Assembly (NCBI RefSeq): GCF_014202425.1
Contig: NZ_JACHGT010000005.1
Span: forward strand, 186,001 to 250,000
From: Phytomonospora endophytica
GTDB taxonomy: Bacteria; Actinomycetota; Actinomycetes; Mycobacteriales; Micromonosporaceae
Direction: 5' to 3'
Length of the DNA stretch: 64,000 bases
This document shows, piece after piece, positions 2,708 to 12,634 of the stretch. A program made the position numbers and the translations under genes. The notes beneath the pieces were generated by a model. That model was not told where the DNA came from and did no database searches. It saw only the letters and a program-made list of their open reading frames with translations. How positions within the stretch are numbered: the first letter of the stretch is position 1; every line of letters starts with the position of its first letter.

Positions 2708-3262
2708 ATGGTCAACGCGCCCTTCGGGTCCTTCGACACCGTCCATACCGCCGTCGAGCGGGCCGACCTGCTCGTCGCGCCGGTCGCCGCCGCCTTGAAG
2801 CACTGGACGGCCGAGGACCCGGTGGAGTCGGTGCTCCTGGTCGACACCGACCCGGAGAAGGCCGACACGACGGTGTTCTGCGAGACCTACGACGTCGCCC
2901 CCGAAGTCTCGGCCAACTGCGTCATCGTCGCCGCCCGCCGCGGCGAGGTCACCACCCTGGCGGCCTGCGTCGTGCTCGCCACGACCCGCCTCGACGTCAA
3001 CAAGACCGTCCGCAAGCACCTTGGGGCGCGCAAGGCCTCCTTCGCGCCGATGGACACCGCCGTCGCCGAGACCGGCATGGAGTACGGCGGGATCACCCCG
3101 ATCGGCCTGCCCGACGGCTGGCCGCTGCTCATCGACGCCGCCGTCGCCGCGAGCCCGCACGTGCTCATCGGCAGCGGCTCCCGCCGCGGGAAGCTGATCG
3201 TGCCGGGCCGCGCGCTGGCCGCCCAGCCCGGCGCCGAAGTCGTCGAGGGCCTCGCCGGCTGA
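2708..3262 (+). CDS. YbaK/EbsC-type aminoacyl-tRNA deacylase
   Basis: 184 aa, start ATG at 2708 preceded by GGAAGG. The fold signature of the YbaK/ProX editing domain is visible: an early segment for aminoacyl-tRNA binding, a VNKTVRKHLGARKASFAP stretch equivalent to the conserved K..R..LG.kk..fA region, then GMEYGGITPIGLP and a terminal IGSGSRRGKLIVPG. Such proteins hydrolyse mischarged tRNAs (for example Cys- or Ala-tRNAPro) in trans in the cytosol. The same frame is open far upstream through the preceding gene, but that is a shadow. Family is clear, the tRNA substrate is not. Confidence 0.88.
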   Translation: MVNAPFGSFDTVHTAVERADLLVAPVAAALKHWTAEDPVESVLLVDTDPEKADTTVFCETYDVAPEVSANCVIVAARRGEVTTLAACVVLATTRLDVNKTVRKHLGARKASFAPMDTAVAETGMEYGGITPIGLPDGWPLLIDAAVAASPHVLIGSGSRRGKLIVPGRALAAQPGAEVVEGLAG

Positions 3263-3265
3263 TTC

Positions 3266-3280
3266 TCTGCTGACAGCAGA
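3266..3280 (+). promoter_or_regulatory. PopR-type operator upstream of the clpP pair
   Basis: The palindrome TCTGCT-GAC-AGCAGA matches the architecture of the PopR site described for Streptomyces clpP3 (TCTGCC-N3-GGCAGA), with one base changed in each arm. It lies 88 bp before the clpP start, just upstream of a possible -35 (TTGTGG, 3286-3291), which would suit an activator. Only one copy is seen, whereas the Streptomyces site was described as tandem. Confidence 0.7.
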
Positions 3281-3367: not shown

Positions 3368-3973
3368 ATGCAGACCACGACGATAAGCGGATCACTCGAC
3401 GACCAACTGGCCGCCAGGCTCCTCCAGCAACGCATCATCGTGCTCGGGACCGAGGTCGACGACCAGGTCGCCAACCGCCTGTGCGCCCAGTTGCTGCTGC
3501 TGTCGGCCGAGGACCCGCGCGGCGACATCAGCCTCTACATCAACTCCCCGGGCGGTTCGGTCAGCGCCGGACTCGCCATCTACGACACCATGCGGCTGAT
3601 TCCCAATGACGTCAGCACATTGGTGATGGGACTGGCGGCGAGCATGGGTCAGTTCCTGCTGTGCGCCGGCACCGCCGGGAAGCGTTACAGCCTGCCGCAC
3701 TCGCAGGTTCTCATGCACCAGGGCTCGGCCGGGTTCGGCGGGACCGCCGCCGACGTGGAGATCTACGCCGGGCAGCTGGAGCGCATCGGCCGCCTGATGG
3801 ACAAACTGACCGCCGAGCACACCGGGCAGTCGCCCGAGACGATCCAGAAGGACGGCCTGCGCGACCGTTGGTTCAGCGCCGAGGAGGCCCGCGACTACGG
3901 GATGATCGACCACATCGTTCAGCACGTCTCCGACGTGCGTCCCGCCGTCGCGCAGCGCCGGGTGGGGGTGTGA
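3368..3973 (+). CDS. clpP3: ATP-dependent Clp protease proteolytic subunit (ClpP3-like), catalytically intact
   Basis: 201 aa, typical ClpP length, ATG preceded by AAGAAGG. The fold signatures [18 protein letters not shown] and [12 protein letters not shown] are present, and the triad is complete: Ser92 in AASMG, His117 in LMHQG, Asp166 in LRDRWF. It forms heptameric rings that degrade substrates fed by ClpX or ClpC in the cytosol. The next clpP starts 2 nt after its stop, so the two are an operon and probably form a mixed barrel. The PopR-like site upstream and the convergent popR-like gene match the arrangement of Streptomyces clpP3-clpP4, the conditionally expressed pair, rather than the housekeeping clpP1-clpP2. 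The numbering is inferred from that context. Confidence 0.92.
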
Positions 3974-3975
3974 CG

Positions 3976-4596
3976 ATGGGCCAGTACACGATTCCCACGG
4001 TCATCGAGAAGACCCCGAACGGCGAGCGCGCCTTCGACATCTACTCGCGGCTGCTGTCGGAGCGGATCATCTTTCTGGGCACCGAGATCGACGACGGCGT
4101 CGCCAACGTCATCATGGCGCAGCTGCTGCATCTGGAGTCGGAGAGCCCGGACCTGGAGATCGGGCTGTACATCAACTCGCCCGGTGGTTCCTTCAGTGCC
4201 TTGACGGCCATCTACGACACGATGCAGTTCATCCGGCCGGACATCGCCACCTATTGCATGGGGCAGGCCTCGGGCGCGGCGGCGGTGCTGCTCGCGGCGG
4301 GCGCGCCGGGCAGGCGCTCGATCCTGCCGCGCGCGAAGGTCATGCTGCACCAGCCGTCGAGTCAGGCACGGGGCACCCTGCCCGACCTGGCGGTGCAGGC
4401 CAAGGAGGTCGCGCGGATGCGGCAGGAGATGGACGAGATCCTCGGAGCCCACACCGGGCACTCGGTGGAGAAGATCCGTGAGGACACCGACCGCAACATC
4501 ACCTTCAGCGCGCAGGAGGCCGTCGACTTCGGTTTGGCCGACCGGATCGTGGGCAGCCGCAAGGCGAGCGGCAAACGGCTCGCGATGGCGCGCTGA
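3976..4596 (+). CDS. clpP4: ClpP4-like subunit with altered catalytic triad
   Basis: 206 aa, ATG 2 nt after the upstream stop. It keeps the ClpP scaffold ([53 protein letters not shown]). Compared without gaps with the usual GQAASAAAVLL, it reads [11 protein letters not shown]: the nucleophile position (residue 100) is Gly and Ser has moved to residue 99. His125 is kept, but the catalytic Asp of the usual DTDRD is Asn174 (DTDRN). The subunit is therefore predicted to be inactive or very poor and to act as a structural or regulatory partner of the intact ClpP before it, like cyanobacterial ClpR or Listeria ClpP1. The inactivity is inference; the residues are read directly. Confidence 0.9.
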
Positions 4597-4660: not shown

Positions 4661-5029
4661 TCAGGCCGCCAGGCAGAACACGTCGCCGGACCCGCGCGAC
4701 TGCGCCCGGACCGGGACGACGTCGAGCCGCCCGACCGGCGCGCGGCGAGCACGGTCGGCGGCCAGGAAGGCGGCGACCTCGGTCAGGACGTCGGCGAGTT
4801 CGATCCGCAGTGCCTCGCAGATCGCGGCCAGGACCTCCGACGAGGCCTCCTTGCGGCCACGTTCGAGTTCGGAGAGGTACTGCATCGAGACGCGGGCCAT
4901 GCGGGCCACGTCGGCGAGGGTCCGGCCCTGGTCGAGACGGGCACGGCGCAGGACCGCGCCGATGAGCGTGCGCAGGAGGAGCCGCGACCGGCGGGTGCGG
5001 TCGTCGGTGACGGGGACCGGGTCCGGCAT
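4661..5029 (-). CDS. popR: XRE-type HTH regulator of the PopR/ClgR family with a C-terminal LAA
   Basis: 122 aa. The ATG has AAGGAG upstream (CGAAGGAGTGCC before the start). Residues about 20-85 are a Cro/C1-type helix-turn-helix with the ClgR/PopR hallmark pattern: GAVLRRARLDQGRTL, VARMARVSMQYLSELERG and KEASSEVLAAICEALRIEL. The protein ends FCLAA; an exposed C-terminal Ala-Ala is the degron by which PopR and ClgR are destroyed by ClpP1P2, so levels should rise when the housekeeping Clp is busy or absent. It is convergent with the clpP pair, as popR lies beside clpP3-clpP4 in Streptomyces, and a matching operator precedes that pair. The proposed role is activation of clpP3P4. ClgR, which activates clpP1P2 and lon, is the alternative identity. 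Confidence 0.85.
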   Translation of the reverse strand: MPDPVPVTDDRTRRSRLLLRTLIGAVLRRARLDQGRTLADVARMARVSMQYLSELERGRKEASSEVLAAICEALRIELADVLTEVAAFLAADRARRAPVGRLDVVPVRAQSRGSGDVFCLAA

Positions 5030-5354: not shown

Positions 5355-5718
5355 CCGTCATCGCGCAAGCGCGGACCGGAGCGGCGGCCAACGCCCTCGC
5401 CCGCGAGCATGAGCCCTGATCGTGCGAACGCGCAGAGCGGAGAGGTGGCTAACGCTCTCGCCCGCGAGCAGGAGCCCTGATCGTGCGAACGCGCAGAGCG
5501 GAGGTGAGCTCGGCGACGAACTCCGGCATCCGCTCCCCTCATCGCGCGCACGCGCGGACCGGAGCCGTGGTCCTCGCTCCGGAAGCGCAGCAGGGACCCT
5601 CATCGCGCGCACGCGCGGACCGGAGCGGCGGCCAACGCCCTCACCCGCGAGCAGGAGCCCTGATCGTGCGAACGCGCAGATCGGAGGTGCTCCAACCGAC
5701 GTGCGTGTGGCGCAGCGG
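5355..5718. repeat. Tandem array of a 61-bp unit, six imperfect copies
   Basis: Units begin at 5355, 5414, 5475, 5536, 5597 and 5658, giving periods of 59, 61, 61, 61 and 61 bp. Each starts with a variant of CCCTCATCGCGCGCACGCGC or CCCTGATCGTGCGAACGCGC, followed by a GGAG-containing block; several continue with a GCCAACGCCCTC..CCCGCGAGCAGGAG segment. Two sequence classes alternate irregularly (TCATCGCGCGCACGCG at 5355, 5536 and 5597; TGATCGTGCGAACGCG at 5414, 5475 and 5658), which suggests unequal exchange or conversion between copies. The period is not a multiple of three, which argues against coding. There are no spacers of CRISPR type, because the whole unit is repeated. Confidence 0.9.
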
Positions 5719-7074: not shown

Positions 7075-7391
7075 GGGCGAATCGTCGGGTTCGGAGGCAT
7101 TGATCGGGCTCCGTCGGCACGGGACCGTTATCCGGTGACTCGTGCCGTGACCTGGAGTAGCCCGGGTCGGTGGACGGCATCGGATGGAGGGCGGACGATC
7201 ACTGTGAGATCGGACGGTGGAGTCGGTTCACGGCCGCTCGAAGCGCTTCGCCCCCTCCCGTCGGCAGGATCTCCCGGCCCCCTTGGCCACGCCCCGTTAA
7301 CCCGCCTCGCCTTCGCGGGTCCCCTCCCGCCCGTCCGGCCGCGTTCGGCCCGCCCGGCGATCCCCGTCCCTCGACCCCAGCGAGAGAACTG

Positions 7392-8786
7392 ATGAGACCT
7401 GAAACAGCCGTGGTCCTTTTGTGGTGCGCCGTTCCCGCCCTCGTACTGGCGGTCGCGGCGGCGGTCTACCTGGCGCGGACGGCCAAGCGGCAGCGCGTCC
7501 GCGCCGACGCCCTGAAGGTTCGCCTCGACGCCCGCGACGGCGCCCTCGAACACTTCGTCGCCAAGACGCTCCCCTCGGTCGCCGAATCCCTCGAACGGCC
7601 CGACGCGCAGGTCGCCGACTTCACCGCGCCCCGCCTGGAGAACTCGCGCTTCTCGGAGAACCTCCGGACCGTCGCCGACCGCTACGGCACCGACCTGCGC
7701 TCCCTGCGCGCCCACACCGAGAAGACGGTGCGCGAAGAGGTCGAGGCCGAGGCGCGCGAGGCCATCCTGGCCGCCGAGGAGTCGACGCTGGCCCGCATCG
7801 AGACCGAGGCCCACGACGTCACCCGCGCCGCCGTTCGCTCCTTCGGCACCTCCGTGGTCAGCCTCGGCGCCGACGTCGGCCAGATCGTCAGCAGGGCCCT
7901 GCGCGAGCATCGCGAGGACGAGGTCTACGAGACCCTCACCCGCATCGACCACACCGTCCAGCAGATGATCCGCCAGGCCCAGTCCTACGTGATCGTCTGC
8001 GGTGGCCTGCCCGGCCGGCGCTGGCCGACGCAGACCTTCACCGACGTCATCGGCGGCGCCATGGGCCGCGTCCGCGACTACACGCGGGTGCAGCCCAAGC
8101 AGCTCGAACGCGGGGTCATCAGCCGTGCCGTCGAACCGCTGGTGCACACCCTGGCGACCTTGCTGGACAACGCTCTGCGCTACTCACCGCCGACGTCCTA
8201 TGTGGAGGTCGGCTTCCAGGAGGGCCACCACGGCGTCACCGTCATCGTCGACGACGCCGGCGTGCGGATGAACGCCGAACAGCGCGAGAACGCCCGCCTC
8301 GTCCTCTCCGGCGAGCGACCGGTCGACGTCCACCAGCTCGGTCCGTCCCCGAAGGTCGGCTTTCCCGGCATCGCCGCCCTCGCCCGCCGTTACGGCTTCA
8401 GCGTCACCGTCGACGGTCCCAACGCCTACGGAGGAATGCGCGCGATGGTGTTCGTCCCCGAGTCCCTCCTGGTCTCGGTCGCCGCCGAGCGCGAGCCCGT
8501 CCAGGCGGCCGTCGCCGCGGCCGCGTCCAACGGCGCCGTGACCGCCCCGGCGCAGGTCGCGGCCGCCGTCGCCGAAGCGGAGCCCGCGGACGTGCCGCTC
8601 ACCGTCGAGGAGACCCCCGGCGGGCTGCCGAAGCGCCGCCGGCGGCCGGTCGCCGCGCCGATCGCCCAGAACGGCCGCGCCATCAGCTCCGAGCCCGCCC
8701 GTCCCGGCATCGCCGCCGCCTGGCACACCGGGACCCGCAGCGGCCGCGCCGCCGCATCCGACCACACCGAAGGGACGACATCCTGA
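7392..8786 (+). CDS. cvnA: CvnA-type sensor ATPase (histidine-kinase-like) of a conservon
   Basis: 464 aa. One N-terminal membrane helix (VVLLWCAVPALVLAVAAAVY, residues about 7-26) leads into a helical cytoplasmic linker and a HATPase_c-like domain (about 255-350) with an N-box (ATLLDNALRYSPP), a DDAG segment and a weak GFPGIAALA region. The tail is Ala/Pro-rich. There is no H-box, as in other nocardioform-type CvnA proteins, so phosphotransfer is unlikely. Conservon products form a membrane complex that recalls eukaryotic G-protein signalling: CvnA and CvnB are thought to control the GTPase CvnD. The gene is shorter than many CvnA and lacks a large external sensor domain. The stop overlaps the cvnB start (TGATG). 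Confidence 0.88.
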   Translation: MRPETAVVLLWCAVPALVLAVAAAVYLARTAKRQRVRADALKVRLDARDGALEHFVAKTLPSVAESLERPDAQVADFTAPRLENSRFSENLRTVADRYGTDLRSLRAHTEKTVREEVEAEAREAILAAEESTLARIETEAHDVTRAAVRSFGTSVVSLGADVGQIVSRALREHREDEVYETLTRIDHTVQQMIRQAQSYVIVCGGLPGRRWPTQTFTDVIGGAMGRVRDYTRVQPKQLERGVISRAVEPLVHTLATLLDNALRYSPPTSYVEVGFQEGHHGVTVIVDDAGVRMNAEQRENARLVLSGERPVDVHQLGPSPKVGFPGIAALARRYGFSVTVDGPNAYGGMRAMVFVPESLLVSVAAEREPVQAAVAAAASNGAVTAPAQVAAAVAEAEPADVPLTVEETPGGLPKRRRRPVAAPIAQNGRAISSEPARPGIAAAWHTGTRSGRAAASDHTEGTTS

Positions 8787-9217
8787 TGGGCACACCCGAC
8801 GCGCAGGTCACCGAGGCCACCAACCGGCTCGGCTGGATGCTCAGAGAACTCGACGGCCCGGGCGTGCGCTTCTCGGTCCTGCTCTCGGCCGACGGCATGC
8901 GCATCGCGCACTCCGACGGCGTCCGCGTCGACGACGCCGAACGCTTCGCCGCGGCCGCGTCCGGTCTCCAGTCCCTCGGCAAGGCCCTCGCGGAGTTCTG
9001 CGGCGGCCGCCGCAACGCCGTGCGGCAGAACATGACCGAGTACGACGAGGGCCTGATCTTCATCACCGCGGCCGGTGAGGGCGCCCTCCTGGGCGTCGCC
9101 ACGACCACCGCGGTCGACGTCGGCCTCGTCGCGCACCGGATGAACGAGCTCGCCGCGCGGGTCGGGCACGAGCTGGGCAGCGAGCCCCGGCGCGGCGACG
9201 GCGGCAGCGGGACATGA
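8786..9217 (+). CDS. cvnB: CvnB, roadblock/LC7-domain protein of the conservon
   Basis: 143 aa; the ATG at 8786 shares a base with the cvnA stop. A single roadblock/LC7 domain spans residues about 10-125 (LGWMLRELDGPGVRF, VLLSADGMRIAHSDGV, LIFITAAGEGALLGVATT, VDVGLVAHRMNELAARVG). In conservons and in the MglA/MglB system, roadblock proteins bind the small GTPase and may act as GAP or scaffold. It is the second gene of the translationally coupled operon. Family is certain; biochemical role is inferred from Streptomyces conservons. Confidence 0.93.
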   Translation: MGTPDAQVTEATNRLGWMLRELDGPGVRFSVLLSADGMRIAHSDGVRVDDAERFAAAASGLQSLGKALAEFCGGRRNAVRQNMTEYDEGLIFITAAGEGALLGVATTTAVDVGLVAHRMNELAARVGHELGSEPRRGDGGSGT

Positions 9218-9582
9218 GCGGGCCGCGGCGCGATCCCGACCTGGTCCGGGCCTATGTCCGGACCGGCGGTCGCTCGCGCGCGACGCGTGACCTGGACCTG
9301 GTCACCCTCGTCGTCGCCGCGAAGAACCCGCCGAAGTCGAACGTCACCCCGCAGACCATGCCGCCCGACGCCCGCCGGGTCATGGGGCTGTGCGGCAGGC
9401 ACGGCGCGCTGTCGGTCGCCGAGATCGCGGCCTACCTGGACCTTCCGCCCTCGGTGGTGAAGATCGTGGTCAGCGATCTCATGGACGGCGGCCACGCCGA
9501 CTCGCCGGCCCCGGCCGAGACCGTGCCGGAGCTGAGCATGCTGGAGGAGGTGCTGCATGGGCTCCGCGCTCTCGCGGTCTGA
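9214..9582 (+). CDS. cvnC: CvnC, DUF742 protein of the conservon
   Basis: 122 aa, ATG overlapping the cvnB stop by 4 nt. The DUF742 pattern is clear: RDPDLVRAYVRTGGRS, DLDLVTLVVAA, and a winged-helix-like middle (MGLCGRHGALSVAEIAAYL, PPSVVKIVVSDLMDGGHA), ending LEEVLHGLRAL. The winged-helix look suggests nucleic-acid or protein binding, but no conservon CvnC has a settled activity. It overlaps cvnD by 26 nt, so the two are translated together. Confidence 0.92.
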   Translation: MSGPRRDPDLVRAYVRTGGRSRATRDLDLVTLVVAAKNPPKSNVTPQTMPPDARRVMGLCGRHGALSVAEIAAYLDLPPSVVKIVVSDLMDGGHADSPAPAETVPELSMLEEVLHGLRALAV

Positions 9583-10159
9583 GCAGGTCGCCTACGTCGC
9601 CGAGACCGTGACCCGCTCGGTGAAGCTGCTGGTCGCGGGGAACTTCGGCGTCGGCAAGACCACCTTCGTGGGCAGCGTCTCGGAGATCAAGCCGTTGCGC
9701 ACCGAGGAGACCATCACCGAGGCCAGCGTCGGCGTCGACGACCTCGCCGGGCTTGACGGCAAGACGCAGACCACGGTGGCGATGGACTTCGGCCGCATCA
9801 CCGTCAGCGCGAGTCTCGCGCTGTACCTGTTCGGGACGCCCGGCCAGCGCCGTTTCCTGCCCATGTGGGACGACCTCGCCAAAGGCGCCCTCGGCGCGCT
9901 GGTCCTGGTCGACACCCGCCGGCTCGACCACGCCGACGAGGTCCTGGCCGTCCTCGAAGAGCGCGGGGTGCCCTTCGCGGTCGCCGTCAACGAGTTCGAC
10001 GGCGCCGCCCGCTATCCACTCGAAGAGATCCGCGAGGCCCTCGACCTCGATCCCGCCACGCCCCTGACGTCGGTCGACGCCAGGGACCGGGCCACGTGTG
10101 TGGCCGCGCTCATCACCCTCGTCGAATTCCTGTTCCACCGACTGGAGTCCCGCCCTTGA
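9557..10159 (+). CDS. cvnD: CvnD, small GTPase of the conservon
   Basis: 200 aa. P-loop GNFGVGKTTFVGSV (residues about 31-44), a switch region with EETITEASVG, a G3-like LFGTPGQRRFLPMWDD, and a NEFD at the NKxD position, typical of the MglA/CvnD group. It should bind and hydrolyse GTP in complex with CvnA-C at the membrane. The start lies inside cvnC, and its TGA overlaps the TTG start of the P450 that follows, so signalling genes and P450s form one coupled operon. Confidence 0.94.
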   Translation: MGSALSRSEQVAYVAETVTRSVKLLVAGNFGVGKTTFVGSVSEIKPLRTEETITEASVGVDDLAGLDGKTQTTVAMDFGRITVSASLALYLFGTPGQRRFLPMWDDLAKGALGALVLVDTRRLDHADEVLAVLEERGVPFAVAVNEFDGAARYPLEEIREALDLDPATPLTSVDARDRATCVAALITLVEFLFHRLESRP

Positions 10160-11400
10160 GTACCCAGCAGTCCTCCGCCTCCCCGCCGGTCTGCCCCGTC
10201 TCCGCGACTCCGGCGGGATACCGCTATCCGCTGTACGCGCCGGAGTACGCCGCCGACCCGCACGGCGCCTACCGCGAGCTGCGCGCCCGCTTCGGGTCGC
10301 TCGTGCCGGTCGAGCTGTCCCCGGGCGTGCCGGCCACGCTCGTCATCGGCTACCACGACGCCGTCCGCATCCTCAACGATCCGGAGCACTTCCCGGCCGA
10401 CCCGCGCATGTGGCAGCGCGGTGTCGCCGAGGACTGCCCGGTGCGTCCGATGCTGGAGTGGCGGCCCAACGCGCTGCGCAGCGCGGGCGCCGAGCACACC
10501 CGGTACCGGCAGGCCAACACCGCCGCCCTCGACGGCGTGGACCTGCACGCCCTGCACACCACCGTCGAGCGGCTCGCCGTTCCGCTCATTAATTCCTTCT
10601 GCACCACCGGATCGGCCGACCTGCTGACCCAGTACGCGTGGCCGCTGACCTTCCAGGTCATCAACGCGATGCTCGGGTGCCCGCCCGAGATCGGCGAGCG
10701 CGTCGCCAAGGGCATGGCCGCGATCTTCGAGCTCGACGACGCCGAGGCGGGCAACGAGATGCTCACCACCGCGCTGGTGGAGCTGGTGGGGCTGAAGAAG
10801 GAGGGCGAGCACAACGACGTCACCTCCCGGTTGATGGCGCACAGGAACGGCCTCGACGACGTCGAGATGATCCACCAGCTGGTGACCCTCTACGGCGCGG
10901 GGATCGAGCCGCTGACGAACCTGATCGGCAACACGTTGCTGCTGATGCTCACCGACGAGCGTTTCGCCGGGAACGTGCTCGGTGGCAGCATGTCGGCGCG
11001 CGACGCCCTCGACGAGGTGCTCTTCGAGGACCCGCCGATGGCGAACTACTGCATGTCCTACCCGGCCCAGCCGATCATGATCGGCGACGTGTGGCTGCCG
11101 GCGCACCAGCCGGTCGTGATCAGCCTCGCCGGGTGCAACAACGACCCCGCCATCGCCGCCGGGGACCGGACCGACAACCGCTCCCACCTCGCCTGGAGCA
11201 TCGGCCCGCACGCCTGCCCGGCCCAGTCGGCGGCCTACCTGATCGCGCAGGACGCGATCGACCAGATCCTCGACGCCCTCCCCGAGCTCCGCCTCGCCGT
11301 GCCCGCCGACCGGCTGACGTGGCGGCCGGGCCCCTTCGCGCGGTCGCTGGCGGCACTGCCGGTCGCCTTCCCCGCGTCACCGCCCCTCACCGTGGCCTAA
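10156..11400 (+). CDS. Cytochrome P450, CYP157-like, lacking the ExxR motif
   Basis: 414 aa from a TTG start that overlaps the cvnD stop. Heme ligand Cys354 lies in [11 protein letters not shown]. The I-helix reads [10 protein letters not shown] instead of the usual AGxxTT. At the K-helix, where P450s have ExxR, the sequence is Glu287-Val-Leu-Phe290 (DEVLFEDPP), so the arginine is missing. Loss of ExxR is a known property of the CYP157 family, whose members sit in Streptomyces conservons next to a CYP154 gene, exactly the context here. The substrate is unknown, and an electron-transfer partner is not encoded nearby. Protein fold and Cys ligand are intact, so a working or regulatory heme protein is possible. 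Confidence 0.88.
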
Positions 11401-11413
11401 GGAGAACCTTCAG

Positions 11414-12634
11414 ATGGACCATCCCCTCGTCCTCGATCCCGCCGGGACCGACATCCAGGCCGAGGCCGCGCGCATCCGCGAGCGCGGCCCGGTCACCCTC
11501 GTCGAGCTGCCCGGCGGTGTCCGCGCCTGGTCGGTCAGTGACGCCGAGATCCTGCGGAAGCTGCTGGTCGACGCGCGGGTCTCGAAGGACGCGCGGCAGC
11601 ATTGGCCGGCGTTCGTCAACGGCGAGATCTCGCACACCTGGTCGCTGTTCCTGTGGGTGGCGGTGACGAACATGTTCACCGCCTACGGCGGCGACCACCG
11701 TCGTCTGCGCAGGCTGGTCGCCCCGGCGTTCACGCACCGGCGGACCGCCGCGTTGCGTCCACGGATCGAGGAGATCACCGAGGAGCTGCTCGCGAAGCTC
11801 GCGGCGACGCCCGAGGGCGACGCCGCCGACCTGCGCGAGGACTTCGCCTACCCGCTGCCGATCCAGGTCATCACCGACCTCATGGGTGTGCCGGAATCGC
11901 TCGGGCCGGGGCTGCGCACGTGCGTCGACGGCATCTTCGACACCTCGCTGACGCCCGAAGAGGCCACCGCGAACTTCCAGACGATGTACGGGATCCTTGG
12001 CGAGCTCGTCGAGATCAAGCGCGATCACCCCGGTGACGACATGACCAGCGTCCTGATCGGCACGCGCGACGAGGACGACGGTTCGGCGCTGACCGAGCAG
12101 GAGCTCGTCGACACGCTGCTGCTGGTGATCAGCGCCGGGCACGAGACGACGGTCAACCTGCTCGACCAGGCTATCCACGCGCTGCTGAGCCACCCCGAGC
12201 AGCTGGAGCACGTCCGTGCCGGCCGGGCCACCTGGGACGACGTCATCGAGGAGGCCCTGCGCTTCGAGGCGCCGGTGGCGAACCTGCCGCTGCGTTTCGC
12301 CGTGGAGGACATCGAGGCCGGTGGTGTCGTCATCGCCAAGGGCGACGCGATCCTGGCGTCGTTCGCGGCGGCGGGGCGCGGCGAGAAGTCGCACGGCGCG
12401 ACGGCGGGCGAGTTCGACGTGACCCGTGCCGACAAGGACCACCTCGCCTTCGGTTACGGCGTCCACCACTGCCTGGGCGCGCCGCTGGCGCGGCTGGAGG
12501 CGGCGGTGGCGCTGCCCGCGCTGTTCGCTCGCTTCCCGGACATGCGCCTTTCCGGCGAGGAGCTGGAGCCGGTTCCCAGCTTCATCTCCAACGGCCACCG
12601 GCGGCTGCCGGTGGTGCTGACCCCGAAGGGTTAG
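11414..12634 (+). CDS. Cytochrome P450, CYP154-like, second P450 of the conservon
   Basis: 406 aa, 13 nt after the previous stop, with AAGGAG overlapping that stop. All canonical P450 motifs are present: I-helix [11 protein letters not shown]-helix EEALRFEAP, heme-binding [18 protein letters not shown]154 enzymes hydroxylate steroids, macrolides or other hydrophobic compounds; the natural substrate cannot be told. Being coupled to cvnABCD and to a CYP157-like partner repeats the CYP157-CYP154 pairing of Streptomyces conservons. A terminator hairpin follows. Confidence 0.9.

Follow-up and report, generated by a model that had tools for sequence, protein, structure and literature searches.

The closest described system is the ClpP3-ClpP4 pair of Streptomyces (S. 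lividans and S. coelicolor) with its regulator PopR. For S. lividans, it is assumed that PopR drives clpP3clpP4, and the regulator itself is reported to be broken down in the presence of ClpP1 and ClpP2 (PMC9765437). The housekeeping protease ClpP1P2 of M. tuberculosis and Streptomyces combines a cutting subunit with a docking subunit whose serine is mutationally dispensable (PMC9067928, PMC9765437). For Streptomyces this dispensable serine was reported to be that of ClpP2, on which all three tested ATPases dock (PMC9765437); for M. tuberculosis only the activity of ClpP1 was reported as essential, ClpP2 proteolysis being nonessential and ClpP2 being proposed as a chaperone-binding scaffold (PMC9067928). 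In the chloroplast, catalytically dead CLPP3 complements fully and dead CLPP5 does not (PMC6508832). Degenerate subunits are known from Listeria monocytogenes, where ClpP1 of a two-ClpP system has Asn for the catalytic Asp and is described as having no chaperone-binding N-terminal motif (PMC5361862), and from cyanobacteria and plastids, where ClpR, a ClpP paralogue without the triad, occurs beside an active ClpP.

We analysed a stretch of 64,000 nucleotides of the Phytomonospora endophytica genome (contig NZ_JACHGT010000005.1, positions 186,001 to 250,000), referred to below as the window, which contains two adjacent clpP genes. The first, clpP3 (3368–3973, + strand), encodes a catalytic subunit without the axial-loop motif. 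Its stop codon is followed by 2 bases and then by the start codon of clpP4 on the same strand (3976–4596). Translation of 3976–4593 gives a ClpP4 of 206 amino acids, which matches Pfam family PF00574 (CLP_protease) with an E-value of 1.5e-70 and 237.2 bits, against a cut-off of 20.2. It reads CMGQ-A98-S99-G100-AAAV around the nucleophile site and DTDR-N174 at the acid site, and His125 is retained. The codons, all on the + strand, are TCG for Ser99 (4270–4272), GGC for Gly100 (4273–4275), where the nucleophilic Ser was expected, CAC for His125 (4348–4350) and AAC for Asn174 (4495–4497), where the catalytic Asp was expected. ClpP4 thus has Gly100, His125 and Asn174 in place of the Ser-His-Asp of an active ClpP serine protease. 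An earlier note, made from the sequence of the window, had claimed that this subunit had lost its nucleophile and acid and kept its His, next to an intact upstream ClpP. Translation and alignments confirmed the first part, and a hand count and the triad columns of the alignment confirmed Ser92, His117 and Asp166 in ClpP3.

The three best PDB sequence alignments of the window ClpP4 are ungapped near the nucleophile, and in multiple alignments of ClpP relatives Gly100 falls in the nucleophile column. A misalignment of the nucleophile as the cause of Gly100 was seen in neither set of alignments. An AlphaFold model of ClpP4, with 32 sequences as input (the window ClpP4 and 31 of the 80 named-genome loci described below), had a mean pLDDT of 87.5. 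In VIA-align it matched 6vgq_A, from the M. tuberculosis ClpP1P2 complex, with a Z of 30.2, an rmsd of 1.6 and 178 residues aligned, a match that ties with many other ClpPs (Z about 30). Based on translation, Pfam, alignments, tree and AlphaFold model, clpP4 was classified as a docking-type subunit with a ClpP fold and a broken triad.

Upstream of clpP3 lies a PopR-like operator, TCTGCTGACAGCAGA (3266–3280, + strand), 15 bases long with a 7-base inverted repeat. It is a perfect TCTGCY-N3-RGCAGA box and matches the PopR motif as quoted in PMC9775585. With at most one mismatch the box was found upstream of clpP3 at 135 of 164 loci, against about 0.45 expected from single-base shuffles (20 per locus). 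Further upstream, on the same strand as clpP3, a gene at 2714–3262 encodes a protein with an aminoacyl-tRNA editing domain (Pfam tRNA_edit). Downstream of clpP4, on the opposite strand, is a popR-like regulator gene (4661–5029, − strand) encoding an XRE helix-turn-helix protein that ends in CLAA and is a paralogue of ClgR. Its best NCBIfam match was ClgR with 98.9 bits, under the model cut-off of 170. As another ClgR-like gene lies elsewhere in the genome (C3:100569, 56% identity over 78 residues to the window regulator), the gene at 4661–5029 is best read as PopR. Counting any XRE match above 35 bits, and scoring the window as having one, an XRE gene like that of the window was present at 153 of 164 loci; 145 of 152 in the fetched loci end in Ala-Ala.

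Both a PopR-type operator and a nearby PopR/ClgR-like gene were therefore found at the window locus, and they suggest that the pair is under PopR control here, as is known in Streptomyces. The PopR-type box, together with the behaviour of PopR in S. lividans, makes it probable that the window pair, too, acts as a backup produced upon failure of ClpP1P2. The other two ClpPs of the genome form an intact clpP1-clpP2 pair, and the ORF that follows this pair looks, by eye, like ClpX. The earlier note had called the pair stress-inducible. That description holds only in the PopR sense, as expression upon failure of ClpP1P2 when PopR is no longer degraded, which is known from S. lividans; of this route the window shows the Ala-Ala end of its regulator. 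The sequence does support an operon that pairs an intact with a dismantled subunit and has a PopR-like box and a neighbouring regulator gene.

The locus resembles the Streptomyces pair in gene order, upstream PopR-type box, ClgR-like regulator and broken ClpP4. However, in Streptomyces ClpP4 the catalytic His is replaced by Gly (all 16 Streptomyces loci among the best 80 named-genome loci), whereas here Ser is replaced by Gly and Asp by Asn, and the two are separate events on the trees. The comparison with Listeria ClpP1 drawn in the earlier note proved to be inverted: in Listeria the degenerate subunit is the one described without the N-terminal motif (PMC5361862), whereas in the window this docking motif is present in the degenerate ClpP4 and absent from ClpP3. 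In addition, Listeria ClpP1 has lost the Asp alone and its triad is reported to be aligned in the complex, whereas in the window ClpP4 the Ser has been replaced too (Gly100). ClpR resembles the window ClpP4 in lacking the triad beside an active ClpP, but it is reported to mix with ClpP3 within rings (PMC4673316), which would set it apart.

To place these changes, ClpP genes were collected from named genomes (the best 80 of 591 loci, picked by similarity to the window ClpP4), from the class (30 loci and 60 further places taken) and from the family (the top 56 places and 12 of lower strength taken). ORFs shorter than 150 amino acids, scoring below 80 bits or containing X were left out. Removal of identical ORFs reduced 435 to 418, which were aligned with the two window proteins and used to build a tree. 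The ClpP4 clade was defined as the largest clade that includes the window protein but excludes ClpP1 and ClpP2 of the same genome. It comprised 166 rows (support 0.944), 164 of which had an upstream ClpP partner; no partner was found for L157, at a contig edge, and L016, with its ClpP3 in two frames. The window ClpP4, the second gene after an intact ClpP3, falls in the same clade as the Streptomyces genes, which were assigned as ClpP4 by operon position and PopR box and not by annotation. One row, L003, duplicates the window gene; it was dropped for the counts over 165 ClpP4s, but is still included in the 166-row clade and in the clade-loss and operator counts.

Among 165 distinct ClpP4s, 123 lacked the canonical triad, in 23 combinations, and 42 were intact; since loci entered the set by their resemblance to the window ClpP4, with the best matches favoured, this is not a population frequency. 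Ser was lost in 34, His in 32 and Asp in 82. All 163 detected ClpP3 partners were intact, and no triad loss was seen among them. Outside the ClpP4 clade 253 of 254 ClpPs were Ser-His-Asp, so that the loss in ClpP4 is not a matter of chance. The sole broken ClpP outside the clade in this set, L066:2968-3576 from a Candidatus Aegiribacteria MAG, is Ser-His-Asn. All 55 distinct ClpP4s obtained from the 56 strongest family matches (L089–L143 and the window) were broken, the window gene being the only Gly-His-Asn among them. Eleven ClpP4s (L157–L164, L168, L169 and L171), ten of them after Ser99, have Glu for the nucleophilic Ser, which puts a charge inside the cutting chamber.

The housekeeping subunits ClpP1 and ClpP2, encoded by these same genomes, served as a control. 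In 60 genomes searched, ClpP1 and ClpP2 were found in 58 (G300 and G388 had no match at the threshold), and each was Ser-His-Asp in 58 of 58. The docking ClpP2 of the housekeeping protease thus keeps its triad, in contrast to the window ClpP4. ClpP4 was broken in 41 of these 58 genomes and intact in 15; none was mapped in two, G071 and G396, the former probably dropped as an identical copy of the Asanoa locus L005.

Six changes between the intact and the broken state were needed on a quick tree (176 rows, the three triad columns excluded) and again six on a thinned tree built from 109 ClpP4s with 9 outgroup rows, leaving out columns 99, 100, 125 and 174. Of 1000 bootstrap trees 200 were used for the count, with six changes in 198 and 7 in the other 2. 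On these numbers a single ancestral loss of the triad was rejected. The outgroup rows were all Ser-His-Asp. Shuffled labels needed about 35 changes (100 shuffles) against six, showing that the broken state follows lineages. On the quick tree the six changes correspond to six maximal all-broken clades. The first has 76 rows, with the window gene counted twice, and has lost Asp in 75 of the 76 (support 99). The second (26 rows, support 100) contains Streptomyces and genus g70 and has lost His. Ser has changed to Gly or Trp in the third (11 rows, support 90) and to Ala or Gly in the fourth (9 rows, support 98), some members of which also have Asp for His. The fifth and sixth are the single genomes L210 and L224. 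Bootstrap values of the four large clades were 99–100 on the thinned tree; L210 pairs with its nearest row at a support of 4, inside a node of 88, and L224 is placed at 65–72, and either of these two losses could be a sequencing error. On these trees the ClpP4 triad has been lost six separate times, by different residues, with an intact partner, which bears out the suggestion of the earlier note that the pseudo-protease had arisen separately.

Three close relatives of the window ClpP4, L089, L156 and L090, have Ala-Ser-Ser at 98–100 and Asn at 174. Most likely, therefore, the Asp was lost first in the lineage of the window, as in these relatives, and Ser100 later. An early Asp loss common to the whole clade does not fit cleanly, because the clade member L092 has the Asp, with neither Ser nor His; the Asp has either been lost more than once in the window's clade or been regained in L092.

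Docking features are divided over the two subunits. The N-terminal axial-loop motif was present in 164 of 165 ClpP4s and in none of 163 ClpP3s; the pattern had been loosened after misses, and under the original, stricter one 134 of 165 ClpP4s and again none of the 163 ClpP3s were positive. In the window ClpP4 both pocket residues for ATPase docking are retained, Tyr65 (4168–4170, + strand) and Phe85 (4228–4230, + strand), which we take to be the equivalents of Tyr62 and Phe82 of E. coli ClpP (E. coli mature numbering); the window ClpP3 has Leu at the latter position. Both aromatics were found in 157 of 165 ClpP4s against 1 of 163 ClpP3s. Only 1 of the 42 ClpP3s paired with an intact ClpP4 keeps both, which indicates that the docking split precedes the triad losses. 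In the ClpP1 controls the Tyr62 position was Y in 43, W in 8 and H in 7 of 58, and the Phe82 position F or Y in 56 of 58. Streptomyces ClpP1 is reported to have the pocket aromatics and yet to bind no ATPases (PMC9765437). As ClpP1 mostly keeps the aromatics and the Streptomyces protein does not dock, they are a guide to docking and not a proof of it.

Taken together, these data make it likely that the window clpP3-clpP4 genes encode a PopR-controlled backup Clp protease with a cutting ClpP3 and a docking pseudo-protease ClpP4. The two subunits would most likely assemble into a mixed barrel to which each contributes one ring, and ClpP3 would do the cutting. ClpP4 would form a catalytically inert ring offering axial loops and hydrophobic pockets; ClpX or ClpC would dock on it and the substrate would enter through it. 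Such a protease would carry the asymmetry of ClpP1P2 further. The docking split would have come first, since nearly all ClpP3s, those with an intact ClpP4 included, have lost their docking features; the active site of ClpP4, having become superfluous, would then have decayed through different residues in at least six lineages. The residues, the one-sidedness and number of the losses, the kept docking features and the purifying selection are seen directly in the sequences and trees, from which the rings, the docking on ClpP4 and its inactivity are deduced. The loss of the pocket aromatics in ClpP3 may also explain why ClpP3P4 is reported to be insensitive to ADEP (PMC12607617). Our literature search found no experiment showing the rings or the docking face of a ClpP3P4 complex. 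One published result points the other way: single S. cattleya ClpPs, including genes named clpP4 and clpP5, together with ClpX shortened the half-life of RelB2 in E. coli (PMC4989188). This result is weakened by the presence of E. coli's own ClpP, and the gene names were not mapped to the ClpP4 family.

Triad loss as such is not unique to this genome, given the Streptomyces ClpP4s without His and an S. coelicolor allele in print. Alleles lacking the triad have been published as single cases from S. coelicolor and Nocardia, as has the dispensability of the serine of the docking subunit (PMC9067928). A full-text literature search, in which few subscription journals were covered, found no account of the ClpP4 family losing its triad time and again, through changes at different residues and only in the subunit that carries the docking features. 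Inactive ClpP subunits, a known oddity, thereby become a replicated natural experiment: in this set all six losses fell on the subunit that has docking features, its partner was spared each time, and ClpP1 and ClpP2 of these genomes provide the control. Why one ring of a two-ring Clp protease retains or gives up its active sites can now be put to a direct test in Streptomyces. For structural studies of the grip of ATPases on ClpP, the ClpP4s supply natural candidates for rings that only dock, and the losses bear on the insensitivity of the backup protease to inhibitors and ADEP.

The plain reading of the triad losses is neutral loss in a rarely used backup. A more tentative possibility, which we hold to be somewhat doubtful, is that the loss was selected in actinobacteria, repeatedly and always on the docking side, because an inert docking ring makes a better backup when ClpP1P2 is poisoned. 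A ring without nucleophile could not be acylated by active-site inhibitors that neighbours produce. According to a review, beta-lactones are lethal to S. coelicolor without clpP3 and clpP4 (PMC9775585), which fits an inhibitor-tolerant backup. A partly deactivated ClpP might also grip its ATPase more tightly, as in Listeria, where partial deactivation is reported to raise the affinity for ClpX (PMC5361862).

That ClpP4 instead keeps a modified active site, with Ser99 or a Ser-His-X site completed in the mixed complex still cutting, seems unlikely. Most broken ClpP4s do retain the Ser (89 of 123) or His125 (91 of 123), and Listeria ClpP1 (Asn172) is reported to align an active triad only in the complex with ClpP2 (PMC9765437). 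Sixteen ClpP4s, e.g. L100 and L131, are Ser-His-His. This is the triad composition of herpesvirus proteases. Since the Ser is present in most broken ClpP4s, some that are Ser-His-Asn, Ser-His-Ser or Ser-His-His may still be active. However, the window protein lacks both Ser and Asp, and the 16 Streptomyces genes lack the His. Judged by their residues, only the Ser-less ClpP4s, that of the window included, look clearly dead as serine proteases. The earlier note had seen the Ser as shifted to position 99, which did not hold. In the AlphaFold model residue 99 is the last of the strand and the helix starts at 101, so that residue 100 is at the position of the nucleophile elbow, one residue beyond Ser99; alignment and model alike put residue 100, and not Ser99, in the active position. 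Ser99 is no displaced nucleophile either, because the close relatives carry it beside Ser100: the 99–100 pair is Ser-Ser in 41 of 165 ClpP4s, all 41 among the 82 that lack the Asp. Outside the ClpP4 clade Ser99 occurs in 1 of 254 ClpPs. The 34 ClpP4s without Ser100 have Glu, Gly, Ala, Trp or Gln instead, and 21 of them lack Ser99 as well. The codons of the relatives, the model and the Ser-less relatives without Ser99 together rule out Ser99 as a shifted nucleophile.

Rather improbable, too, is a ClpR-like ClpP4 that mixes with ClpP3 inside each ring. It would be compatible with the sequence data, and cyanobacterial ClpP3/ClpR rings are reported to hold 3 ClpP3 and 4 ClpR (PMC4673316). Mycobacterial ClpP1P2, however, is described as separate homoheptameric rings (PMC9067928), and the docking faces of ClpP3 and ClpP4 differ strongly.

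The broken ClpP4s are under purifying selection. Their median dN/dS was 0.155 (521 pairs), and in 489 matched pairs the medians were 0.154 for ClpP4 and 0.174 for ClpP3 (pairs of at least 85% identity and dS 0.1 to 1.0, which are not independent). Of 44 positions that are at least 95% conserved in ClpPs other than ClpP3 and ClpP4, 31 stay at or above 95% in the broken ClpP4s, and six fall below 80%, namely the triad (100, 125 and 174) and 84, 113 and 140; Arg173, which precedes the Asp position, is kept in 98%. Between the window and L089, dN/dS was 0.36 for ClpP4 and 0.07 for ClpP3, by which some extra relaxation of the window ClpP4 is possible; against L156 (0.19 and 0.19) and L090 (0.30 and 0.34) there was no such gap. 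Very unlikely, therefore, is a ClpP4 that is merely decaying, in a backup operon heading towards a pseudogene and with functionless triad changes: the triad columns vary freely (nine non-Asp residues occur at the Asp position), and the window ClpP4 is faster than ClpP3 against one of three close relatives, but the conserved positions, a dN/dS much like that of ClpP3, the mostly kept operator and regulator and a broken state that covers whole clades (76 and 26 rows) all argue against it. True pseudogenes would be under-counted in these numbers, because genes whose frame was short or broken had been removed beforehand.

Beyond the popR-like gene, and ahead of the genes that follow it, the window contains a tandem array (5369–5686) of 5.2 copies of a 61-base unit with 72% matches. 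The region of about 5.1–7.1 kb that holds the array has long ORFs overlapping in several frames and appears non-coding by eye. It is followed at 7170–12634 by genes for a histidine-kinase-like ATPase, a Roadblock/LC7 protein, an ATP_bind_1 (small GTPase-like) protein and a P450 in a row, the four products among the ORFs there that the Pfam check covered. This gene row resembles a 'conservon' of the kind found in Streptomyces.
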